Source: an uncultured Lentisphaeria bacterium (GTDB lineage: Bacteria; Verrucomicrobiota; Lentisphaeria; JABSQK01; CAJWLW01). Taken from it: a stretch of 13,210 bases of DNA. Made by a program: the position numbers and the translations under genes. Each line of letters opens with the position of its first letter. Position 1 is the stretch's first letter. A model generated the notes under the pieces. The model ran no database searches and was not told the DNA's origin. It worked only from the letters and a program-made list of their open reading frames with translations. The stretch lies in NCBI GenBank assembly GCA_913042885.1, contig CAJWLW010000106.1, positions 1 to 13,210 of the forward strand, read 5' to 3'. Of this stretch, positions 6,073-13,210 are shown piece after piece.

Positions 6073-6152
<80 letters not shown>

Positions 6153-6206: not shown

Positions 6207-7889
6207 ATGAGTACCGAAACTGAATCTGTCGATTTCATTCGCGCCATGGTTGCCGAGGATCTGAGCACCAGCAAATGGGACGGCCGCGTCGTTACGCGAT
6301 TTCCTCCGGAGCCAAACGGCTACCTGCACATCGGCCACGCCAAGAGTATCTGCCTCAACTTCGGTGTTGCCGCCGAGTTCGGCGGCTCCTGCAACCTGCG
6401 ATTTGACGACACCAACCCCGTCAAGGAAGAGACTGAGTACGTTGAGGCCATCAAGGAAGACGTCCGCTGGCTTGGCTGGGATTGGGCCGATCGCGAATAC
6501 TACGCCTCCGACTATTTCGATCAACTCCACGACTGGGCCGTACAACTGATCAAAAACGGCAAGGCCTTCGTCTGCGATTTGACCGCAGACGAACATCGCG
6601 AATTCCGCGGCACCCTGACCACACCTGGCAAGAACAGCCCGCACCGTGATCGCTCGACAGAAGAAAACCTGGACCTTTTCGAGCGCATGCGTGCCGGCGA
6701 ATTTCCCGACGGCAGCAGGGTACTGCGTGCCAAAGTCGATATGGCCGCGCCGAATCTCAACCTCCGTGACCCTGTGATGTATCGCATCCTGCATGCCGCG
6801 CATCACCGCACGGGTGATAAGTGGTGCATCTATCCGATGTACGATTTCACACACGGCCAGAGCGATTCGACCGAGAAGGTGACGCATTCGTTGTGCACGC
6901 TCGAGTTCGAGGATCATCGGCCGCTGTACAACTGGTATCTCGAAGCACTGGGCATCTACCACCCGGAACAGACTGAGTTCGCCAGGCTCAATCTGACACA
7001 CACCGTACTGAGCAAACGCCGTCTGATCCAGCTCGTAACCGGAAACCACGTCAATGGCTGGGACGACCCGCGCATGCCGACAATCTGCGGTCTGCGCCGA
7101 CGCGGCTACACGCCGGAGTCCGTGCGCACCTTCTGTGAACGCATCGGCGTTACCAAACGCGAAAACGTCATAGAAATGGGGCTGCTCGAGTACTGCCTGC
7201 GCGAAGATCTCAACAAGCGTGCAGCGCGACGCATGGCAGTGCTGCATCCCTTAAAATTGGTGATCGACAACTACCCCGAGGACCTCGTCGAAGAGATGGA
7301 GGCAGTCAACAATCCCGAGGATGCCGATGCCGGCAAACGCCAGGTCCCGTTCTCACGTGAGCTCTACATCGAGCAGGACGATTTCCGCGAAGATCCGCCG
7401 CGCAAATATTTCCGGCTGTCACCCGGTCGCGAGGTGCGGTTGCGCTATGGCTACTTCGTCACCTGCACCGATTTTGTCAAAAACGACGCCGGCGAAGTCA
7501 TCGAGGTGCATTGCACGTATGACCCGGAAACCCGTGGCGGTAACGCCCCGGACGGGCGCAAGGTCAAGTCGACTATTCACTGGGTGTCAGCTCGACATGC
7601 GGTAAAGGCGGAAGTACGCCTGTACAACGAGCTTTTCACCGAGTCCGACCCCGACAACGTCACCAACGAAACTGACACTTACCTGGACAACCTCAATCCC
7701 AAGTCGCTCGAGGTATTGACCGACTGCTGCGCCGAGCCCTGCTTAGCGTCGGCAAGCGTTGGTGACAAAGTGCAGTTCGAACGCACAGGTTATTTCTGCG
7801 TCGACCCCGACAGTACCTCCGAGCGCCCTGTCTTCAACCGCACCGTAGGACTGCGTGACACCTGGAAGAATATCCAGAAGCGCGGCTGA
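6207..7889 (+). CDS. glnS: Glutaminyl-tRNA synthetase, 560 aa
   Basis: This cytoplasmic class I aminoacyl-tRNA synthetase charges tRNA-Gln with glutamine. The HIGH signature lies in [15 protein letters not shown] (HIGH at 41-44). FDDTNP (66-71) is the acceptor/ATP-site segment. The KMSKS counterpart is VLSKRRL (267-273), as in E. coli GlnRS (VMSKRKL). The C-terminal half is the paired beta-barrel anticodon domain with [16 protein letters not shown] and [16 protein letters not shown]. Length equals the usual ~555 aa, so the gene is complete. The ATG at 6207 follows AGGTGG (6191-6196) at a usual distance. The tRNA-Pro gene lies just upstream. No T-rich terminator hairpin is visible after the TGA. 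Presence of GlnRS means tRNA-Gln charging here does not need the Glu-tRNA amidotransferase route. Confidence 0.98.
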
Positions 7890-8064
7890 GACACGTCAGC
7901 AATACATCCCCCGGAAGCGGCAGCAGGCCGCAATCGCGTTGACACACGGGAATACGGTGGCGGTCTGGTTCTCTTACGCGACGGCACAGTGAGCACTCGA
8001 CGAACGGGTCGCAAGGCGTTCGGCGAAGAGAAAACTGGGCGAACACTTCCGAAGCATGATTTTT

Positions 8065-8081
8065 CCCGGCGCATGGCCGGG
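8065..8081. repeat. Short perfect inverted repeat between convergent genes
   Basis: CCCGGC (8065-8070), loop GCATG, GCCGGG (8076-8081). It lies in the 199-bp gap between glnS and the phosphopantoate ligase gene, just past the end of the latter. On the minus strand the stem is followed by an A run, not a T run, so it is not a standard intrinsic terminator. It may still mark a transcript 3' end. I see no convincing gene in the gap. Confidence 0.35.
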
Positions 8082-8088
8082 GTATCAT

Positions 8089-8823
8089 TCACCCGCCGCC
8101 GCGCATGCAATCTGCGGCAGCTGCCAGGACACTGGCGTTGTCAAAGTGGCTGAGGATCACCGCCGCATCACGTGGCGCCTCCGGTATCGACTGCAAAGTT
8201 TCCAACAGCACCGGCATCGCCCGCACGAGGTTGTCGACAATCGTAACCGACGCTGTCCGCGCTGTCCGTGACAGCGGATTGAGATCCACCGTCACAACAT
8301 CCTTGCCCATCTTGCGCAGAGCCTCACAGCGATCACCATCTTCCAGCGGCACGAACACCACGTCCGCCTTCAGAATGCCTTCCGGATGCACAAAGCGACG
8401 GTTCGAATCGATGTGATCCAGCGTCGCGTCCGTCTGCGGCAGCAGTACATCGGAAGCCCCGTGCCTCTGAAGATGTTCACAGATGGCCTGCTCACGGTCC
8501 TTGGAACTGTGAAAGATGTTCACTTCCAGCGGTGCCCCGACCAAATCTCCGAGGGCGACCAACTCACTCGGCACCAGTGCTGCGGCATTGCCGTTGACCG
8601 AAATAACCGGGTGCCCGGCAGACTGCAACATCGCTGCCGCGGCCGCAATTGCAGACTCTGCAAAGTCGTGTGTGCGCTCCCCGATCAGATAGTCGAAAGC
8701 CTCGCCACGACCGTGCGCAATGAGGCCGTGGATCGATGTCACACCGGCTTCGACGCCGGCGACGATACGGTCGCGCAGCATCAGCGAAAGGTGACGCGGA
8801 TGTGTTTCCGGGACATCACTCAT
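8089..8823 (-). CDS. 4-phosphopantoate--beta-alanine ligase (archaeal-type phosphopantothenate synthetase), 244 aa
   Basis: The enzyme joins 4-phosphopantoate and beta-alanine with ATP to give 4'-phosphopantothenate, a CoA precursor. The family (COG1701/PF02006) is best known from archaea and is unrelated in sequence to bacterial PanC. The conserved blocks are all present: HPRHLSLMLRDRIVAGVEAG (8-27), GLIAHGRGEAFDYLIGE (33-49), PVISVNGNAAAL (72-83), EVNIFHSSKDREQAI (100-114), ADVVFVPLEDGDRCEAL (153-169), VTVDLNPLSRTA (177-188) and TIVDN (194-198). Length is close to the archaeal norm of ~250-260. Its ATG (8821-8823) overlaps the TGA of the upstream pantoate kinase in an ATGA, so translation is coupled. 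With the kinase it forms the two-step archaeal route from pantoate to phosphopantothenate. The TGA stop is at 8089-8091. Identification is by family blocks recalled from memory and is strong. Confidence 0.93.
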   Translation of the reverse strand: MSDVPETHPRHLSLMLRDRIVAGVEAGVTSIHGLIAHGRGEAFDYLIGERTHDFAESAIAAAAAMLQSAGHPVISVNGNAAALVPSELVALGDLVGAPLEVNIFHSSKDREQAICEHLQRHGASDVLLPQTDATLDHIDSNRRFVHPEGILKADVVFVPLEDGDRCEALRKMGKDVVTVDLNPLSRTARTASVTIVDNLVRAMPVLLETLQSIPEAPRDAAVILSHFDNASVLAAAADCMRGGG

Positions 8824-9656
8824 GGCAGCAGACGTCCGCGTTGCCTGGTTAGTCGTGTCTCGATGGCACCGGTGAAGTCGGTGGTGCTGAAAACAGCATT
8901 GCCCAGCATGATCATCGAGGCGCTGCCGCCGCCATCTTCGACTTCCGCGATCGATGCCTGCACGCGTTCATCGCTCAACAGACCGCTGTCCACGGCAAAC
9001 CTCTTCGACAGTCGTATACACGCATCGAAATCTACCGAGGTTTGTTCCAGCAGTCCCTCGATCTTATCGAGCACGGTATCCGCCGCCTGATTGATCCGTC
9101 TTTTCTGCTCAGCGCTGCGCAATACTTCGGCAGTGCGGATGGGGCCGAAGTATCGGTAGTAGATCGGCTGTTCCGCCACCGGCAGCGAAACGGCGGAGAG
9201 GGGGTTGCCGACACGCAGTTTGGCGAGACAACCGCCGTGGAACTGGGCGCAAACGTCGCCGAGGCCGGTGAGATTTTCCACTTCGGCAATGTGCGCGGAC
9301 ATAGCAAGCGCCTCCTCGGCGAGCGCCAAATCAAGCAGTTCGTTCACCGCATAGGCGGTTGCCAGGGCCGATGCCCCGCTCAGACCAAAGCCCGTGCTCA
9401 ACGGCAGCGGCGTCGAGATATCGACCGCCAGCGACGCCGGCGTCAACATCTGAACGACCTGCACTACGGTAGGGAACTCGATCGATTCGCCATTAAAAAC
9501 GACCGCTGTCGACGCTGCCGGACAAACGGTGACGGTGGCACCCTCGGCCACCGTGAAACCCATGCCGAGCGAGTGCATGCGGGCAGGATCATCGTGTTCG
9601 ACGATCTTGAAGACGCATGAAATGTTGCCGGGTGCAAATGCACGTGCTGAATCCAT
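8820..9656 (-). CDS. Pantoate kinase (archaeal-type GHMP kinase), 278 aa
   Basis: The enzyme phosphorylates pantoate to 4-phosphopantoate with ATP; it belongs to the GHMP kinase superfamily (COG1829). Visible landmarks are the N-terminal FAPGNISCVFKI (7-18), the ATP-binding motif PLPLSTGFGLSGASALAT (83-100), EVENLTGLGDVCAQFHGG (125-142) and the C-terminal GGGSASMIMLGNAVF (242-256). The last two are specific to pantoate kinases rather than homoserine or mevalonate kinases. Length agrees with the archaeal enzymes. The ATG at 9654-9656 is preceded by AAGGAA (complement at 9663-9668) at good spacing, and a strong promoter candidate lies at 9698-9726. It is the first gene of the pair with the phosphopantoate ligase, whose start it overlaps by 4 nt. 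Archaeal pantoate kinases are not feedback-inhibited by CoA, so flux control would lie elsewhere. Whether this copy behaves alike is unknown. Confidence 0.9.
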   Translation of the reverse strand: MDSARAFAPGNISCVFKIVEHDDPARMHSLGMGFTVAEGATVTVCPAASTAVVFNGESIEFPTVVQVVQMLTPASLAVDISTPLPLSTGFGLSGASALATAYAVNELLDLALAEEALAMSAHIAEVENLTGLGDVCAQFHGGCLAKLRVGNPLSAVSLPVAEQPIYYRYFGPIRTAEVLRSAEQKRRINQAADTVLDKIEGLLEQTSVDFDACIRLSKRFAVDSGLLSDERVQASIAEVEDGGGSASMIMLGNAVFSTTDFTGAIETRLTRQRGRLLP

Positions 9657-9697
9657 GAACCATTCCTTGAACGACAGTCTGTGTGTTTCCGGGGATT

Positions 9698-9726
9698 ATT
9701 ATGCCCTCCGGCGGCATTGCCTGCAA
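9698..9726 (-). promoter_or_regulatory. Candidate sigma70 promoter of the pantoate kinase operon
   Basis: On the minus strand TTGCAG (complement 9721-9726) and CATAAT (complement 9698-9703) are separated by exactly 17 bases, with transcription expected near 9690 and a leader of about 35 nt. This is the best-looking promoter in the window. It suggests the operon is expressed apart from the RraA-like gene upstream. Confidence 0.55.
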
Positions 9727-9996
9727 CCGCTCCGGTCGGGAAAGAGAGTCTCAGGCCAAGCCGCCACAGCTCATTCAGCCAGGCCTCGGCCAAGGTCCGA
9801 TTTGCTGTCGCCAGTCGAGCAAGTCGTCAGAGAACGCCACACCGTCCCGAGCATGGCCGTCCGAACAGTTTCCGAATTGGACGAACTCGGGGACTGATAT
9901 GTTGTAGGCCGGCCCCGGCGTGCAGCCACGGATATTACGCTCAACGCGATCGGGAGGCATTCTGACCGCGAAAAATGACCAGCGCGGAGGCTCGTC
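9727..9996. other. Gap without a confident gene, between the RraA-like gene and the operon promoter
   Basis: The only frame of note is a 61-codon minus-strand ORF at 9775-9960, starting MPPDRVERNIRG and ending in LLDWRQQIGPWPRPG. It has no Shine-Dalgarno and no recognisable domain. An out-of-frame stretch further on (AEAWLNELWRLGLRLSF) runs from about 9793 towards the operon. Together they could be a decayed gene, but I cannot support that. No T-tailed terminator was seen after the RraA-like gene. Confidence 0.3.
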
Positions 9997-10698
9997 TTAC
10001 TGCTTGAAGCCGTACCGCTCCAGGACCTTCGTCATTTCTTCGCGGCATATGGTGCTGTCGACATCAGTGCGGCGCCATATCGCGTGTACCGCCTGTTCAA
10101 AGCCGCGCATGTCCGGCGCCTTGTCGATCAGCGGCTCCGCTATTTGCTCTGAAATTCGTATCACGCCTTCGCTGTCGGCGTGGATAATGTCGCCGGGATT
10201 GATCGTGATGCCGCCTACTGTTACAGGAACATCCACCTCTGGAAACCGCATGACTTCGTGATGCGCGATCGTGCCGAGGCCGTACACCGCAAACGGCACC
10301 GCCTTACAACCGGGGATGTCCCGGCAATAGCTCTCGCATACAGCCCCGAGGCATCCGGCAGCGTGCAGCATCTTGGCCATACCGTCGCCCAGGACGCACT
10401 CGTGGTCGGGCCGTGAGCCAACAGTCTCGACGACCCAGATCAGCGGCAGGTCCATCTTGCGCATGCGATCGACCTGTTCGAAGTAGTTCTCCATCTCCGG
10501 CTTGCCGCCGGGCGTGCTGCTGTCCATCTTTGCGGTGACCGCAATCCCAGCGATCGGTGCGATCTCCGGTGTCAAGGAATTGATTGCCCCGCTCATGTAC
10601 CACTCAGCGGGTGGGGTCGAGTCAAGGTAGCCCCTCGTATTGGCCAGCAAAGCAGTATCGAATTCGCACAGTGATTCAAATGTCTGGCGCGTGATCAA
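9997..10698 (-). CDS. RraA-like family protein (class II aldolase/decarboxylase superfamily), 233 aa
   Basis: The family (PF03737) includes 4-hydroxy-4-methyl-2-oxoglutarate aldolases, oxaloacetate decarboxylases and the RNase E inhibitor RraA. The core is visible: GDGMAKMLHAAGCLGAVCES (104-123) then Arg126-Asp127, and the C-terminal GGITINPGDIIHADSEGVIRI (162-182), matching the usual GDxxxADxxGVxxxP end of the fold. The DG that normally precedes the Arg-Asp pair is replaced by ES. The acidic residue normally three positions after the Asp is Gly130, so metal binding or substrate may differ. Of the canonical catalytic set the Arg-Asp pair remains. The start is TTG (10696-10698), fixed by a strong GGAGGA Shine-Dalgarno and the absence of a nearby ATG. 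It is divergent from the cupin gene, and 340 bp separate it from the pantoate kinase gene on the same strand. The substrate is unknown. Confidence 0.85.
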   Translation of the reverse strand: MITRQTFESLCEFDTALLANTRGYLDSTPPAEWYMSGAINSLTPEIAPIAGIAVTAKMDSSTPGGKPEMENYFEQVDRMRKMDLPLIWVVETVGSRPDHECVLGDGMAKMLHAAGCLGAVCESYCRDIPGCKAVPFAVYGLGTIAHHEVMRFPEVDVPVTVGGITINPGDIIHADSEGVIRISEQIAEPLIDKAPDMRGFEQAVHAIWRRTDVDSTICREEMTKVLERYGFKQ

Positions 10699-10702
10699 GA
10701 CT

Positions 10703-10708
10703 TCCTCC
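10703..10708 (-). promoter_or_regulatory. Strong ribosome binding site fixing a TTG start
   Basis: On the minus strand GGAGGA lies four bases before TTG ATC ACG. No ATG or GTG in the same frame is better placed, so this site decides the start of the RraA-like gene. Confidence 0.75.
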
Positions 10709-10822
10709 GGTTCGAATGATTACTAAACTAAAGAAATTGAGCAGACACAGTAACAGCATCAGTGGAATTGTCGAGCGATTGTTCATTGCCGATTCCATTT
10801 GTCTCATGCAACGGCAGCTCTG

Positions 10823-10850
10823 TTGCACTTTGCATGGCTGCAACTATCTT
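10823..10850 (+). promoter_or_regulatory. Candidate sigma70 promoter of the cupin lipoprotein gene
   Basis: TTGCAC (10823-10828), a 16-base spacer, and TATCTT (10845-10850). Transcription would start near 10857, about 30 nt before the ATG at 10886. It lies in the 187-bp divergent intergenic region. Confidence 0.45.
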
Positions 10851-10885
10851 GACCCGAGCTTCACCAACACCTCTGCGAGACAGAC

Positions 10886-11350
10886 ATGAACAGCCCCAGA
10901 GTCCACCTCTTCCTGATCCTCACATTCGTTGTCGGCATCATGAGTGGTTGTCGGTCCACGCCGAAGCGTTCGTGGGTCGAGCCCATCCACCTGGACAACT
11001 GGCCGAGAGAACTTCGCGAGCATCCGATGCCACCCGACGAGAACATGCACAAGATCGATCTGGGCGGCACGGAAAATGCCTCGCACCATCTCGTGCGAGT
11101 CCGTGATCGTGAGCCATATCACCTGCACGCCGAACACGATCTGACAGTCTTCGTGCTGTCCGGTCACGGCGATATCATCATCGACGGCACGACCCGGGCC
11201 TGCACGATCGGCAACGTCCTGTTCATCCCGCGCGGCGTCCCGCATGCTTTCGTCAACAAGAGCGACAAGGTCGCTGTCGCATACGCCGTCTTCACCCCAG
11301 CCATGCGGGTCAAAGATTTCGTCAAGGTCCCGGCGGTAACCGGCAAGTAG
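10886..11350 (+). CDS. Cupin-domain lipoprotein, 154 aa
   Basis: The N-terminus is a lipoprotein signal: a short polar start, a hydrophobic run (VHLFLILTFVVGIMSGC) and lipobox IMSG-Cys22. The residue after the cysteine is Arg, not Asp, so sorting to the outer membrane is expected by the E. coli rule. The mature part is a single cupin. Motif 1 is YHLHAEHDLTVFVLSGHG, with His79, His81 and a nearby Glu83. Motif 2, GNVLFIPRGVPHAFVN (109-124), matches the G-x5-P-x-G-x2-H-x3-N pattern exactly, with His120 as the fourth metal ligand. A metal-binding or small-molecule-binding role outside the cytoplasm is likely; the ligand or reaction cannot be inferred. Single cupins are usually cytoplasmic, so the lipid anchor is a distinguishing trait. 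The gene is divergent from the RraA-like gene and upstream of the 404-aa gene. Confidence 0.85.
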   Translation: MNSPRVHLFLILTFVVGIMSGCRSTPKRSWVEPIHLDNWPRELREHPMPPDENMHKIDLGGTENASHHLVRVRDREPYHLHAEHDLTVFVLSGHGDIIIDGTTRACTIGNVLFIPRGVPHAFVNKSDKVAVAYAVFTPAMRVKDFVKVPAVTGK

Positions 11351-11399
11351 GAGTGCGCGTGAGCGGCGTGCAGCCTATTGCAAACTGACTGCTTGAGTC

Positions 11400-11430
11400 T
11401 TGACAGGGGCAAACTGCGGACGCATCATAA
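11400..11430 (+). promoter_or_regulatory. Possible promoter before the 404-aa gene
   Basis: A consensus TTGACA (11400-11405) is followed by TCATAA (11425-11430), but with a long 19-base spacer; shifting to ATCATA gives 18. If real, it means the in-frame TTG at 11400 is a -35 box and not a start codon, which supports the ATG at 11469. Confidence 0.35.
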
Positions 11431-11468
11431 CGGTACGCATCAATCCCACCACTACCACCCGGTCCATC

Positions 11469-12683
11469 ATGCCCATTGAATTCAGATTTGAAGGCTGTTC
11501 ACTGTCGGAAGCGAGCTGGAATCAAGTGATCGATGACGTGCTGGCCCAGGAAGGAATCGAGCCGTACAGCGATCCCCACTTCAGCGGATACGGCGACGGC
11601 GTGGCAGCAAAGATCTGGAGCCCGGGGTCAACACGCGGCGTAAGTATTTTGCGCGGTGCTGACGATACTGTCGACCTGCGTTTCATCGCCCTGGCCAGCC
11701 GGCGGGACTGGCAGACCGGGTTCGCCCTTGCACGCGAGGCACTGGCGCGCGGCAGCGGGTGCCTGGTGCATGAGAACGGCGAGCAATACACCGTCGCTAA
11801 TCTGACCGCAGAGCAGGCAATTGAAGACTCAATTACGGATTTCGTCGAGACGGTCATCAGGGTAACCGCCCTACTCGAATCCGAGGGCACCGATGAAATG
11901 CCATTGCCGTTCGACTATTTCACCCTCGGCTGCAAGACGGGGGATTTCGCCGGCTGCACCTACGAGAACATGCCGGTATTCGAAGAACGCCTGGCAATGC
12001 GCGTCGGCAAATACGCCAGCGCCTATCATGCCGATGTGCTGATGGTGGAGGAGCGTATCCGTGTTGCCAGCTGGACACTGCTGCCGACGATTATCGGCAA
12101 GGTCGATTACGTGGTGGTCGACTACAAGGACAAACTGACGCTGCCCTGCGACCGTCTACTGGAGATTCTCGAGGACCGCGCCGAACGCCTCGGCAGCGCC
12201 ACGTACCTGCCGGAGCTCGATATCGATCGGGATTTCAATATCCTGATGCAGCTCGAGAATGCCCAGATTCCGATGGAGGACATGGTGCCGACCACCAATG
12301 TCCTGGAGGAGCTGGGCAACGATGCATCGGAGACGCTGGTCGAGACGATAGCAGCCATTGTTTACCTACTCATCGCGCAGCAGGACCTGGGTGACATGCG
12401 CCAGTCGATGATGCAGGATGGCTTTGACGAGGTGCAGGCGGACACGCTGATTGCGGCGGTGCGATTGGCACTCGAAGCGATATTCGAAAAAAACCAGAGC
12501 CCGGACCGGATACATCAGACACTGCTGGACGCCGACCTGCCGCCGGACACCGCCAGAGCGATTGTCGCGGGCGTGAGGCAGGCCCTGCAGGACATGCAGC
12601 AGAAACAGGCGGGCACAGGCAAGGGTTGTCTGGGGATGCTACTGCTGCCGATCGCGAGTGCGATTTTATGGCTGCTGTGGTAG
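11469..12683 (+). CDS. Unrecognised protein with duplicated helical motif and C-terminal membrane anchor, 404 aa
   Basis: I do not recognise this family. Residues 1-110 form an alpha/beta-looking region. Residues 115-300 are acidic and mixed, with VDYVVVDYKDKLTLPCDRLL near 212-231. Residues 310-338 and 348-376 are two copies of one helical unit: MRQSMMQDGFDEVQADTLIA... and IHQTLLDADLPPDTARAIVA..., aligned without gaps and sharing the core Q-S/T-(x)-(x)-A-(x)-L/I-I/V-A-x-V-R-x-A-L. After a Gly/Lys linker the last 19 residues (CLGMLLLPIASAILWLLW) are a hydrophobic segment ending the protein, as in C-tail-anchored proteins; most of the chain would face the cytoplasm. No signal peptide is present. 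I preferred the ATG at 11469 over an in-frame TTG at 11400, which would add 23 residues unlike the rest and coincides with a possible -35 box. No good Shine-Dalgarno precedes either. It may share transcripts with the cupin gene upstream. Confidence 0.75.
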   Translation: MPIEFRFEGCSLSEASWNQVIDDVLAQEGIEPYSDPHFSGYGDGVAAKIWSPGSTRGVSILRGADDTVDLRFIALASRRDWQTGFALAREALARGSGCLVHENGEQYTVANLTAEQAIEDSITDFVETVIRVTALLESEGTDEMPLPFDYFTLGCKTGDFAGCTYENMPVFEERLAMRVGKYASAYHADVLMVEERIRVASWTLLPTIIGKVDYVVVDYKDKLTLPCDRLLEILEDRAERLGSATYLPELDIDRDFNILMQLENAQIPMEDMVPTTNVLEELGNDASETLVETIAAIVYLLIAQQDLGDMRQSMMQDGFDEVQADTLIAAVRLALEAIFEKNQSPDRIHQTLLDADLPPDTARAIVAGVRQALQDMQQKQAGTGKGCLGMLLLPIASAILWLLW

Positions 12684-12942
12684 ACGAGACCGTAGCAGTT
12701 CCGGGCGTAGAGGTGCGTTCAGCCTCTGCGAGGGACAGCATCTACGCGCTCCCAGCCCGCTGCGGGACTGTGGGCCCAGACTTTGCGGGCCACACCTGGC
12801 CCGGCGTCACGTTGCTGTTCGATGCGCCGGCGGGATACCCCAGCCTGCTGTAGCCAACCGGTCAGATCCCGGGCAGCGCCCGATGTGACGTCAAGAAGGC
12901 AGGTAAGGCAAGCGGAAGTCAATCCCGTCCGTTATCGTATCT
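12684..12942. other. Convergent intergenic region with two GC-rich hairpins
   Basis: Between the stops of the 404-aa gene (plus) and nadE (minus) there are two stem-loops. One is CGTAGAGG (12706-12713) with CCTCTGCG (12723-12730), one G-T pair. The other is CGGGCC (12786-12791) with GGCCCG (12798-12803), loop ACACCT. Neither has a T run, so they are only possible bidirectional transcript ends. A 67-codon minus-strand frame at 12719-12922 starts with TTG about 20 nt after nadE. It has no recognisable domain and I do not call it a gene. Confidence 0.3.
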
Positions 12943-13210
12943 TCAGATATCGTCGCGCCAGAGATCGTCGACCGCATCGGACGGCATCCGCCAGTCGCCA
13001 CGAGGCGACAGGGAGATGGTACCAACTTTCGGGCCATCCGGAATGCAGCTGCGTTTGAACTGCTGCGAGAAGAAACGCTTGACGAATACATCGAGCCAGC
13101 GCTTGATCTCTTTCTCGGTGTATTTGCCGTCGAAAGCATGCTCCGCCAGAAAGCAAATTTTTCGCGGGCGCGCACCGTACTTGACCGTATGATAGAGAAA
13201 AAAGTCATGC
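12943..13210 (-). CDS. nadE: C-terminal 88 residues of glutamine-dependent NAD+ synthetase (runs off right edge)
   Basis: The frame is open from the window edge to TGA at 12943-12945. It reads [20 protein letters not shown] at the edge and ends with [20 protein letters not shown], then [21 protein letters not shown]. The QFKRS, PxGPKV and [12 protein letters not shown] blocks are the C-terminal signature of the synthetase domain in the large, glutamine-dependent NAD+ synthetases, which amidate nicotinic acid adenine dinucleotide in the last step of NAD+ synthesis. The N-terminal glutaminase (nitrilase-like) domain, the ATP PP-loop and the start all lie outside the window, so the glutamine dependence is inferred from the C-terminal sequence type alone. 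The gene faces the 404-aa gene convergently. Confidence 0.9.

Follow-up and report, generated by a model that had tools for sequence, protein, structure and literature searches.

How does a bacterium make coenzyme A (CoA) when its chromosome carries, side by side, the two enzymes that archaea use to make 4'-phosphopantothenate? The question is raised by a gene pair at 8089-9656 of the window, by which we mean the whole 13,210-nucleotide stretch of contig CAJWLW010000106.1 from an uncultured Lentisphaeria bacterium. The pair consists of homologues of pantoate kinase (PoK) and phosphopantothenate synthetase (PPS, 4-phosphopantoate--beta-alanine ligase). PMC6650551 names the PoK-PPS route for Thermococcus kodakarensis and Methanospirillum hungatei, describes its chemistry for the archaeal enzymes, and terms both enzymes unique to archaea. 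Our analysis indicates that the pair very probably functions as the archaeal-type half of CoA synthesis and has taken the place of its bacterial counterpart. PoK would convert pantoate to 4-phosphopantoate with ATP, PPS would use ATP and beta-alanine to turn this into 4'-phosphopantothenate, and the cell's own CoaBC would convert the product to phosphopantetheine and CoA. Such a route would bypass free pantothenate, and neither PanC nor a pantothenate kinase would be needed. The two genes would have been acquired jointly from an archaeal relative of the Woesearchaeota, probably in a single event, and would then have spread between bacterial phyla, displacing panC and coaX or coaA.

An overlapping pair of archaeal-type genes

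The sequence-only reading had described an archaeal-type PoK and PPS pair here, overlapping at an ATGA and with its family blocks intact. Both open reading frames (ORFs) lie exactly at 8089-9656, and matches to Pfam, NCBIfam, and solved structures agree with the assignment. The overlap is present, and the residues that both proteins share with Thermococcus and the archaeal rows of our alignments are kept in the window. The features are as follows.

8820-9656, minus strand: PoK homologue of the GHMP family, first gene of the pair, 278 amino acids (aa), ATG start
8089-8823, minus strand: PPS homologue, 244 aa, ATG start, matching PF02006, NF041123, and 3wdk
8820-8823, minus strand: ATGA overlap, in which the PPS start codon and the PoK stop codon share four bases common to both ORFs
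9369-9392, minus strand: glycine-rich loop GFGLSGAS, PoK residues 89-96, with G89, F90, G91, and S93 conserved
9255-9284, minus strand: block EVENLTGLGD, PoK E125 to D134, aligned with Thermococcus E134 and D143
8689-8715, minus strand: PPS block HGRGEAFDY, residues 37-45, of which G38, R39, G40, E41, A42, D44, and Y45 pass the 97% filter given below
8587-8601, minus strand: PPS block SVNGN, residues 75-79, all five passing the filter
8266-8286, minus strand: PPS block DLNPLSR, residues 180-186, of which D180, L181, N182, P183, S185, and R186 pass and L184 fails

The PoK homologue matches PF00288 at 41.6 bits (cut-off 22.3). Its two best NCBIfam models are both pantoate kinases, NF040725 (panto_kin_Meth, 148.3 bits) and NF041122 (panto_kin_Thplsm, 77.3 bits), with homoserine kinase ranking third at 33 bits. 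By sequence, the closest solved relative is the pantoate kinase 6jbc (5e-15); identity to the Thermococcus enzyme is about 25%. A structure model built from an 80-row alignment reached a predicted local distance difference test score (pLDDT) of 96, and a 16-sequence version (pLDDT 62) was left unused. The predicted protein has a GHMP kinase domain and the overall fold of solved PoK, with 6jbc as its best match and mevalonate kinase, IspE, and homoserine kinase well behind. Residues S29, S93, E125, D134, and T175 correspond to Thermococcus 28, 104, 134, 143, and 186; S29 is found in 41/42 bacterial-group rows, the other four, E125 and D134 among them, in 42/42, and all five in 9/9 archaeal rows. 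In the glycine-rich loop, which we take to be the GHMP ATP loop, G89, F90, G91, and S93 are identical in Thermococcus PoK, in 9/9 archaeal rows, and in 42/42 bacterial-group rows. E125 and D134 are presumably catalytic residues, and we assume catalytic roles for S29, S93, and T175 as well. Compared with the homologue on L001, a contig of the metagenome-assembled genome (MAG) Lentisphaeria bacterium isolate ETNP2_MAG_64, the nonsynonymous and synonymous substitution values (dN/dS) are about 0.05/0.28, and PoK is therefore under purifying selection.

PPS scores 223.6 bits with PF02006 (cut-off 26.4) and 303.6 bits with NF041123 (cut-off 300), and its closest solved relative by sequence is 3wdk (3.9e-66). 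A filter requiring identity with Thermococcus and with at least 97% of the rows in each of two sets (34 bacterial-group, 20 archaeal-group) retained 52 positions. H37 and F43 of the first block fail it, while the seven residues of that block that pass are also identical in the three rows of a second Lentisphaeria lineage discussed below. From these sequence and fold comparisons, the window PoK is predicted to phosphorylate pantoate with ATP, and the window PPS is predicted to use 4-phosphopantoate.

PanC, pantothenate kinases, and the spread of the pair

A PoK alignment scan of 84,980 species genomes yielded 117 confirmed loci, 80 of which were kept for analysis. By title these comprise 58 Poribacteria, 6 Gammaproteobacteria (one titled Thiotrichales), 3 Gemmatimonadota-labelled, 2 Latescibacterota, 1 Handelsmanbacteria, 1 Lentisphaeria, 6 Woesearchaeota, and 3 methanogen-related archaea. 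PPS follows PoK on the same strand in 29/80 loci, both archaeal and bacterial; the two genes mostly abut or overlap, as they do in loci of Poribacteria, Woesearchaeota, and methanogens and in Gammaproteobacteria, which carry the pair too. In the remaining 51/80 no PPS was found downstream of PoK within the stretch examined, which extended at least 3 kilobases (kb) in 45 of them. Among the Poribacteria loci, PPS lies downstream in 8/58 and is absent from the examined stretch in 50/58 (e.g., L022). Seven Poribacteria genomes of this split kind were searched whole (G005, G007, G008, G009, G012, G013, and G026) and have PPS elsewhere in the genome, which means that the pair has come apart there. 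As for mobile elements, the phage collection searched gave no PoK match, the plasmid collection searched gave no PPS match, and 0/35 pattern matches in the viral contigs collection were confirmed.

The sequence-only reading had offered replacement of PanC and CoaA or a parallel route, and had named panC, coaA, coaX, panB, and coaBC among the genes whose presence would decide. We searched for these in 28 PoK-carrying genomes (24 bacterial, 4 archaeal) chosen from the 80 loci, with 14 genomes as controls, and the outcome favours replacement. PanC was found in 0/28 (the same search matched nine bacteria among the controls), CoaX in 0/28 (seven controls matched), and CoaA over the cut-off in 0/28. 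Three weak partial CoaA matches were rejected as CoaA: each scores better against other kinase models than against CoaA, and Pfam places two of them in the PRK family and the third in none. PPS is present in 28/28, cut short in two drafts (G028 and G001, the latter being the MAG that contains L001); its control search matched the four archaea among the controls. PanB occurs in 25/28 and a CoaBC domain in 27/28, or in 29/30 when G030 and G031, two further genomes of the same class as G001, are included; G001 itself has both. The upstream PanB and the downstream CoaBC that a PoK-PPS route calls for are therefore in place. In 9/28 genomes, the PoK locus lies in a chromosome-titled bacterial record.

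PPS and PanC are mutually exclusive in two groups. Among 84 Poribacteria genomes, 63 have PPS, 14 have PanC, 8 have neither, and one, G277, has both (Fisher p 4e-9, a value that overstates independence because the genomes are related). In the class of the Lentisphaeria MAG, PPS is found in 3 of 197 genomes and PanC in 180, with none having both and 14 neither; phylum-wide, PPS occurs in 3/387 genomes, the same three. G277 is the exception to this pattern.

In trees of both proteins the window groups with its bacterial relatives, for PPS in a single clade and for PoK in a single group with lower support. In a careful PPS tree of 57 rows, which omits the long row L063 and keeps 19 of 31 P rows, the 34 bacterial-group rows fall into a single clade (100/100) inside a larger group with Woesearchaeota (100/99). 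A quick PPS tree of 70 rows also recovers the bacterial clade, at 100. The PoK tree has 51 rows, of which six are P rows and 45 were taken from the 81 that the loci and the window supplied, and in it the 42 bacterial-group rows group at 91/83, with Woesearchaeota next. The trees are in keeping with the transfer from archaea proposed earlier, but within our narrow archaeal sample the archaeal side points to Woesearchaeota and not to Thermococcus. On the simplest reading, a Woesearchaeota-like archaeon probably donated the pair once and it was later passed on between bacteria, the later spread being suggested by the rarity of the pair in the class of the window's kin. Transfer in the opposite direction is possible.

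Replacement weighed against other explanations

Several points weigh against replacement. We know of no enzyme activity for any bacterial member of either family. PoK scores under the curated equivalog cut-offs of both its best models (148.3 vs. 380 for NF040725, 77.3 vs. 500 for NF041122) and is therefore filed under neither. The support for an all-bacterial PoK group, 91/83, is not strong, and rows without an organism name were grouped by likeness (6/20 archaeal-group and 3/34 bacterial-group rows in the PPS tree; P0003, P0004, P0036, P0095, and P0113 in the PoK tree). Archaeal sampling covered Thermococcales, Methanosarcinales/Methanocellales, and Woesearchaeota, a narrow set that makes the donor uncertain. 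As the genomes were picked for PoK, the presence of PPS in all 28 is in part what one would expect. The CoaA control search exceeded the cut-off in just 4/14 control genomes, and the search for CoaW, the type II pantothenate kinase, matched no control genome, so that the absence of kinases covers CoaX and CoaA and CoaW could not be judged. G001 is a draft whose completeness is not established and whose PPS gene is incomplete, and the PanC and kinase counts come from kin genomes, from which we infer the state of the window's own genome. Finally, the Gemmatimonas-labelled MAG G010 has no CoaBC, and three Gammaproteobacteria with the pair (G011, G017, and G024) lack PanB as well, leaving their source of pantoate unexplained.

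Among the alternatives, the one that survives best, itself a long shot, is that PPS is a true pantothenate synthetase acting on free pantoate, and that the GHMP enzyme or another kinase phosphorylates pantothenate afterwards; this would be the bacterial step order carried out by unrelated enzymes. The names in Pfam and NCBIfam keep the wording "phosphopantothenate/pantothenate synthetase", and PPS adjoins a CoaX-like kinase in two other genomes of the class. However, the residues common to Thermococcus and archaeal-group PPS are kept in the bacterial clade, and the partner of the window PPS is closest to a solved pantoate kinase and stands in the archaeal gene order.

We give marginally less weight still to a parallel route, in which PanC and a pantothenate kinase were kept and the pair serves as an extra or conditional path. 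The searches covered kin genomes, and G277 holds both PPS and PanC. Nevertheless, PanC, CoaX, and CoaA over the cut-off are each absent from all 28 genomes, nine of them with chromosome-level records, and the exclusion of PanC by PPS extends over two groups. The PanC contig of G277 (C499, L176) also looks out of place: its tetranucleotide signature correlates at r 0.41-0.53 with those of three other G277 contigs, the PPS contig among them, while r within this trio is 0.91-0.95. A further contig, of 5.9 kb, stands apart as well, and three short fetched contigs were left out of the comparison. Judging from its signature, the PanC contig is probably foreign, a contamination of the MAG.

It is very improbable that archaeal DNA, whether the contig or the pair, was misassembled or misbinned into bacteria. 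MAGs are most of the sources, but the pair stands beside genes for GlnRS, RecO, and H+-pyrophosphatase with a G+C content of 0.60, near the window's 0.585, and both genes also occur in chromosome-level bacterial records. Bacterial homologues outside the window's close kin are nearer to the window (PoK 55-71%, PPS 61-75% identity) than titled archaeal homologues are (PoK 40-49%, PPS 53-60%). In its tetranucleotide signature, the window resembles 21/21 compared contigs of G001 (r 0.88-0.95); among other loci, the Gammaproteobacterium L053 reaches 0.91, above some of the MAG contigs, another Gammaproteobacterium 0.85, and Poribacteria at most 0.74. Window positions 8323-13210 are 88-91% identical to L001 at the DNA level, in three pieces, and this identity together with the signature rules out the setting of typical proteobacterial genes that had been assumed. 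By these comparisons the setting is Lentisphaeria-like, as is also indicated by the CoaBC of G001, which is 50-51% identical to that of two other genomes in its class, compared with 29-34% over most of the length (37% over one 247-aa piece) for the archaeal CoaBC compared. The idea that the kinase is some other GHMP enzyme, similar to homoserine or mevalonate kinase and next to PPS by chance, could draw on its scores under the NCBI pantoate kinase cut-offs, but we dismiss it as similarly improbable given the best match to solved PoK in both sequence and fold and the gene order kept across archaeal and bacterial loci.

Known routes and a second PPS lineage

Replacement of the bacterial steps by the pair can be set against three known arrangements. 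With the route of T. kodakarensis and M. hungatei, the window shares the two families, the conserved residues, and the 6jbc fold, and its PoK-then-PPS order is that of methanogen and Woesearchaeota loci; it differs in that the window-type pair occurs in bacteria, to the exclusion of PanC, and in the distance of its PoK from the archaeal equivalogs. Of the archaeal loci retrieved, those of Woesearchaeota are the most similar to the window (PoK 40-49%, PPS 54-60% identity), and they have the same overlapping order. In one of them (L068), PanB and CoaBC lie directly upstream of PoK-PPS, and panB, coaBC, and PPS are also close together in G025, whereas the window pair is without panB or coaBC, which sit on other contigs of the kin MAG. 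The bacterial PanC and CoaA/CoaX route also starts from pantoate and beta-alanine and also ends in 4'-phosphopantothenate, as PMC6650551 describes. Its enzymes are unrelated to the pair, its step order is the reverse, and it was not detected in the 28 PoK genomes by searches for PanC, CoaX, and CoaA over the cut-off.

A search of open-licence PMC literature, by title or abstract start, found no report of a PoK/PPS pair in bacteria, and database names such as "pantoate kinase" are already attached to Poribacteria proteins. Neither the families nor the route is new, but as far as this search reaches the bacterial clade and its exchange for PanC are undescribed. If replacement is correct, free pantothenate would be neither made by PanC nor used by PanK in cells with the pair. 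What the genomes of marine bacteria and sponge symbionts say about CoA supply and the exchange of vitamin B5 would then change: the absence of panC need not mean auxotrophy, and cells with the pair would be expected neither to release free pantothenate nor to use it in the usual way. The pair would also be a clear example of a central vitamin pathway exchanged between domains in the form of two overlapping genes.

The other two PPS genomes of the kin MAG's class, G030 and G031, have a PPS that is 45-46% identical to that of the window. In the careful PPS tree this lineage is separate from the bacterial clade and has a long branch; a single origin with the window PPS is disfavoured and not rejected (approximately unbiased (AU) test, p 0.061). 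Within the 14 and 19 kb around these PPS genes, to which the search was confined, there was no significant match to the window PoK, and PanC was not found in a search of either genome. A CoaX-like ORF, of the type III pantothenate kinase family, lies downstream on the same strand in both.

L144, 1306-2804: divergent PPS and CoaX-like gene, 8 bases apart
L143, 723-2223: divergent PPS and CoaX-like gene, 7 bases apart

The CoaX-like ORFs score 60.6 and 61.6 bits with PF03309 (cut-off 24.7) and 86.4 and 88.7 bits with TIGR00671 (cut-off 58.2). Their product may phosphorylate pantoate, as a non-GHMP pantoate kinase, or pantothenate made by this PPS. A wider proposal would hold that several bacterial phyla, including most searched Poribacteria, make CoA solely by the archaeal step order after one Woesearchaeota-like transfer and subsequent movement between phyla, and in addition that a second lineage in the kin class gained its PPS independently and pairs it with a CoaX-like kinase turned pantoate kinase. 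We hold this proposal tentatively and would sooner expect it to fail in some part than to be true as a whole.

Some further observations concern the loci and their surroundings. The three Gammaproteobacteria G011, G017, and G024 (loci L053, L061, and L071) have no PanB, PanC, CoaX, or CoaA over the cut-off, and the G017 locus lies in a chromosome-titled record; these organisms may take up pantoate from outside, which is a guess. In L001, a run of 10 N at 7726-7735 falls in the PPS gene shortly before the contig end, and the frame looks broken in the draft; full-length sibling proteins of this PPS exist. Promoter and terminator scans of window positions 7850-10050 gave counts not above those of shuffles. 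A 647-aa protein at 474-2417 on the minus strand has no family match over the cut-off and appears from its sequence to be a multi-pass membrane protein. A 427-aa protein at 11400-12683 on the plus strand has no Pfam or NCBIfam match at 0.001 and is 85% identical in the kin MAG. The sole Rfam match in the window is a tRNA-Pro (CGG) at 6073-6150 on the plus strand, between recO and glnS.
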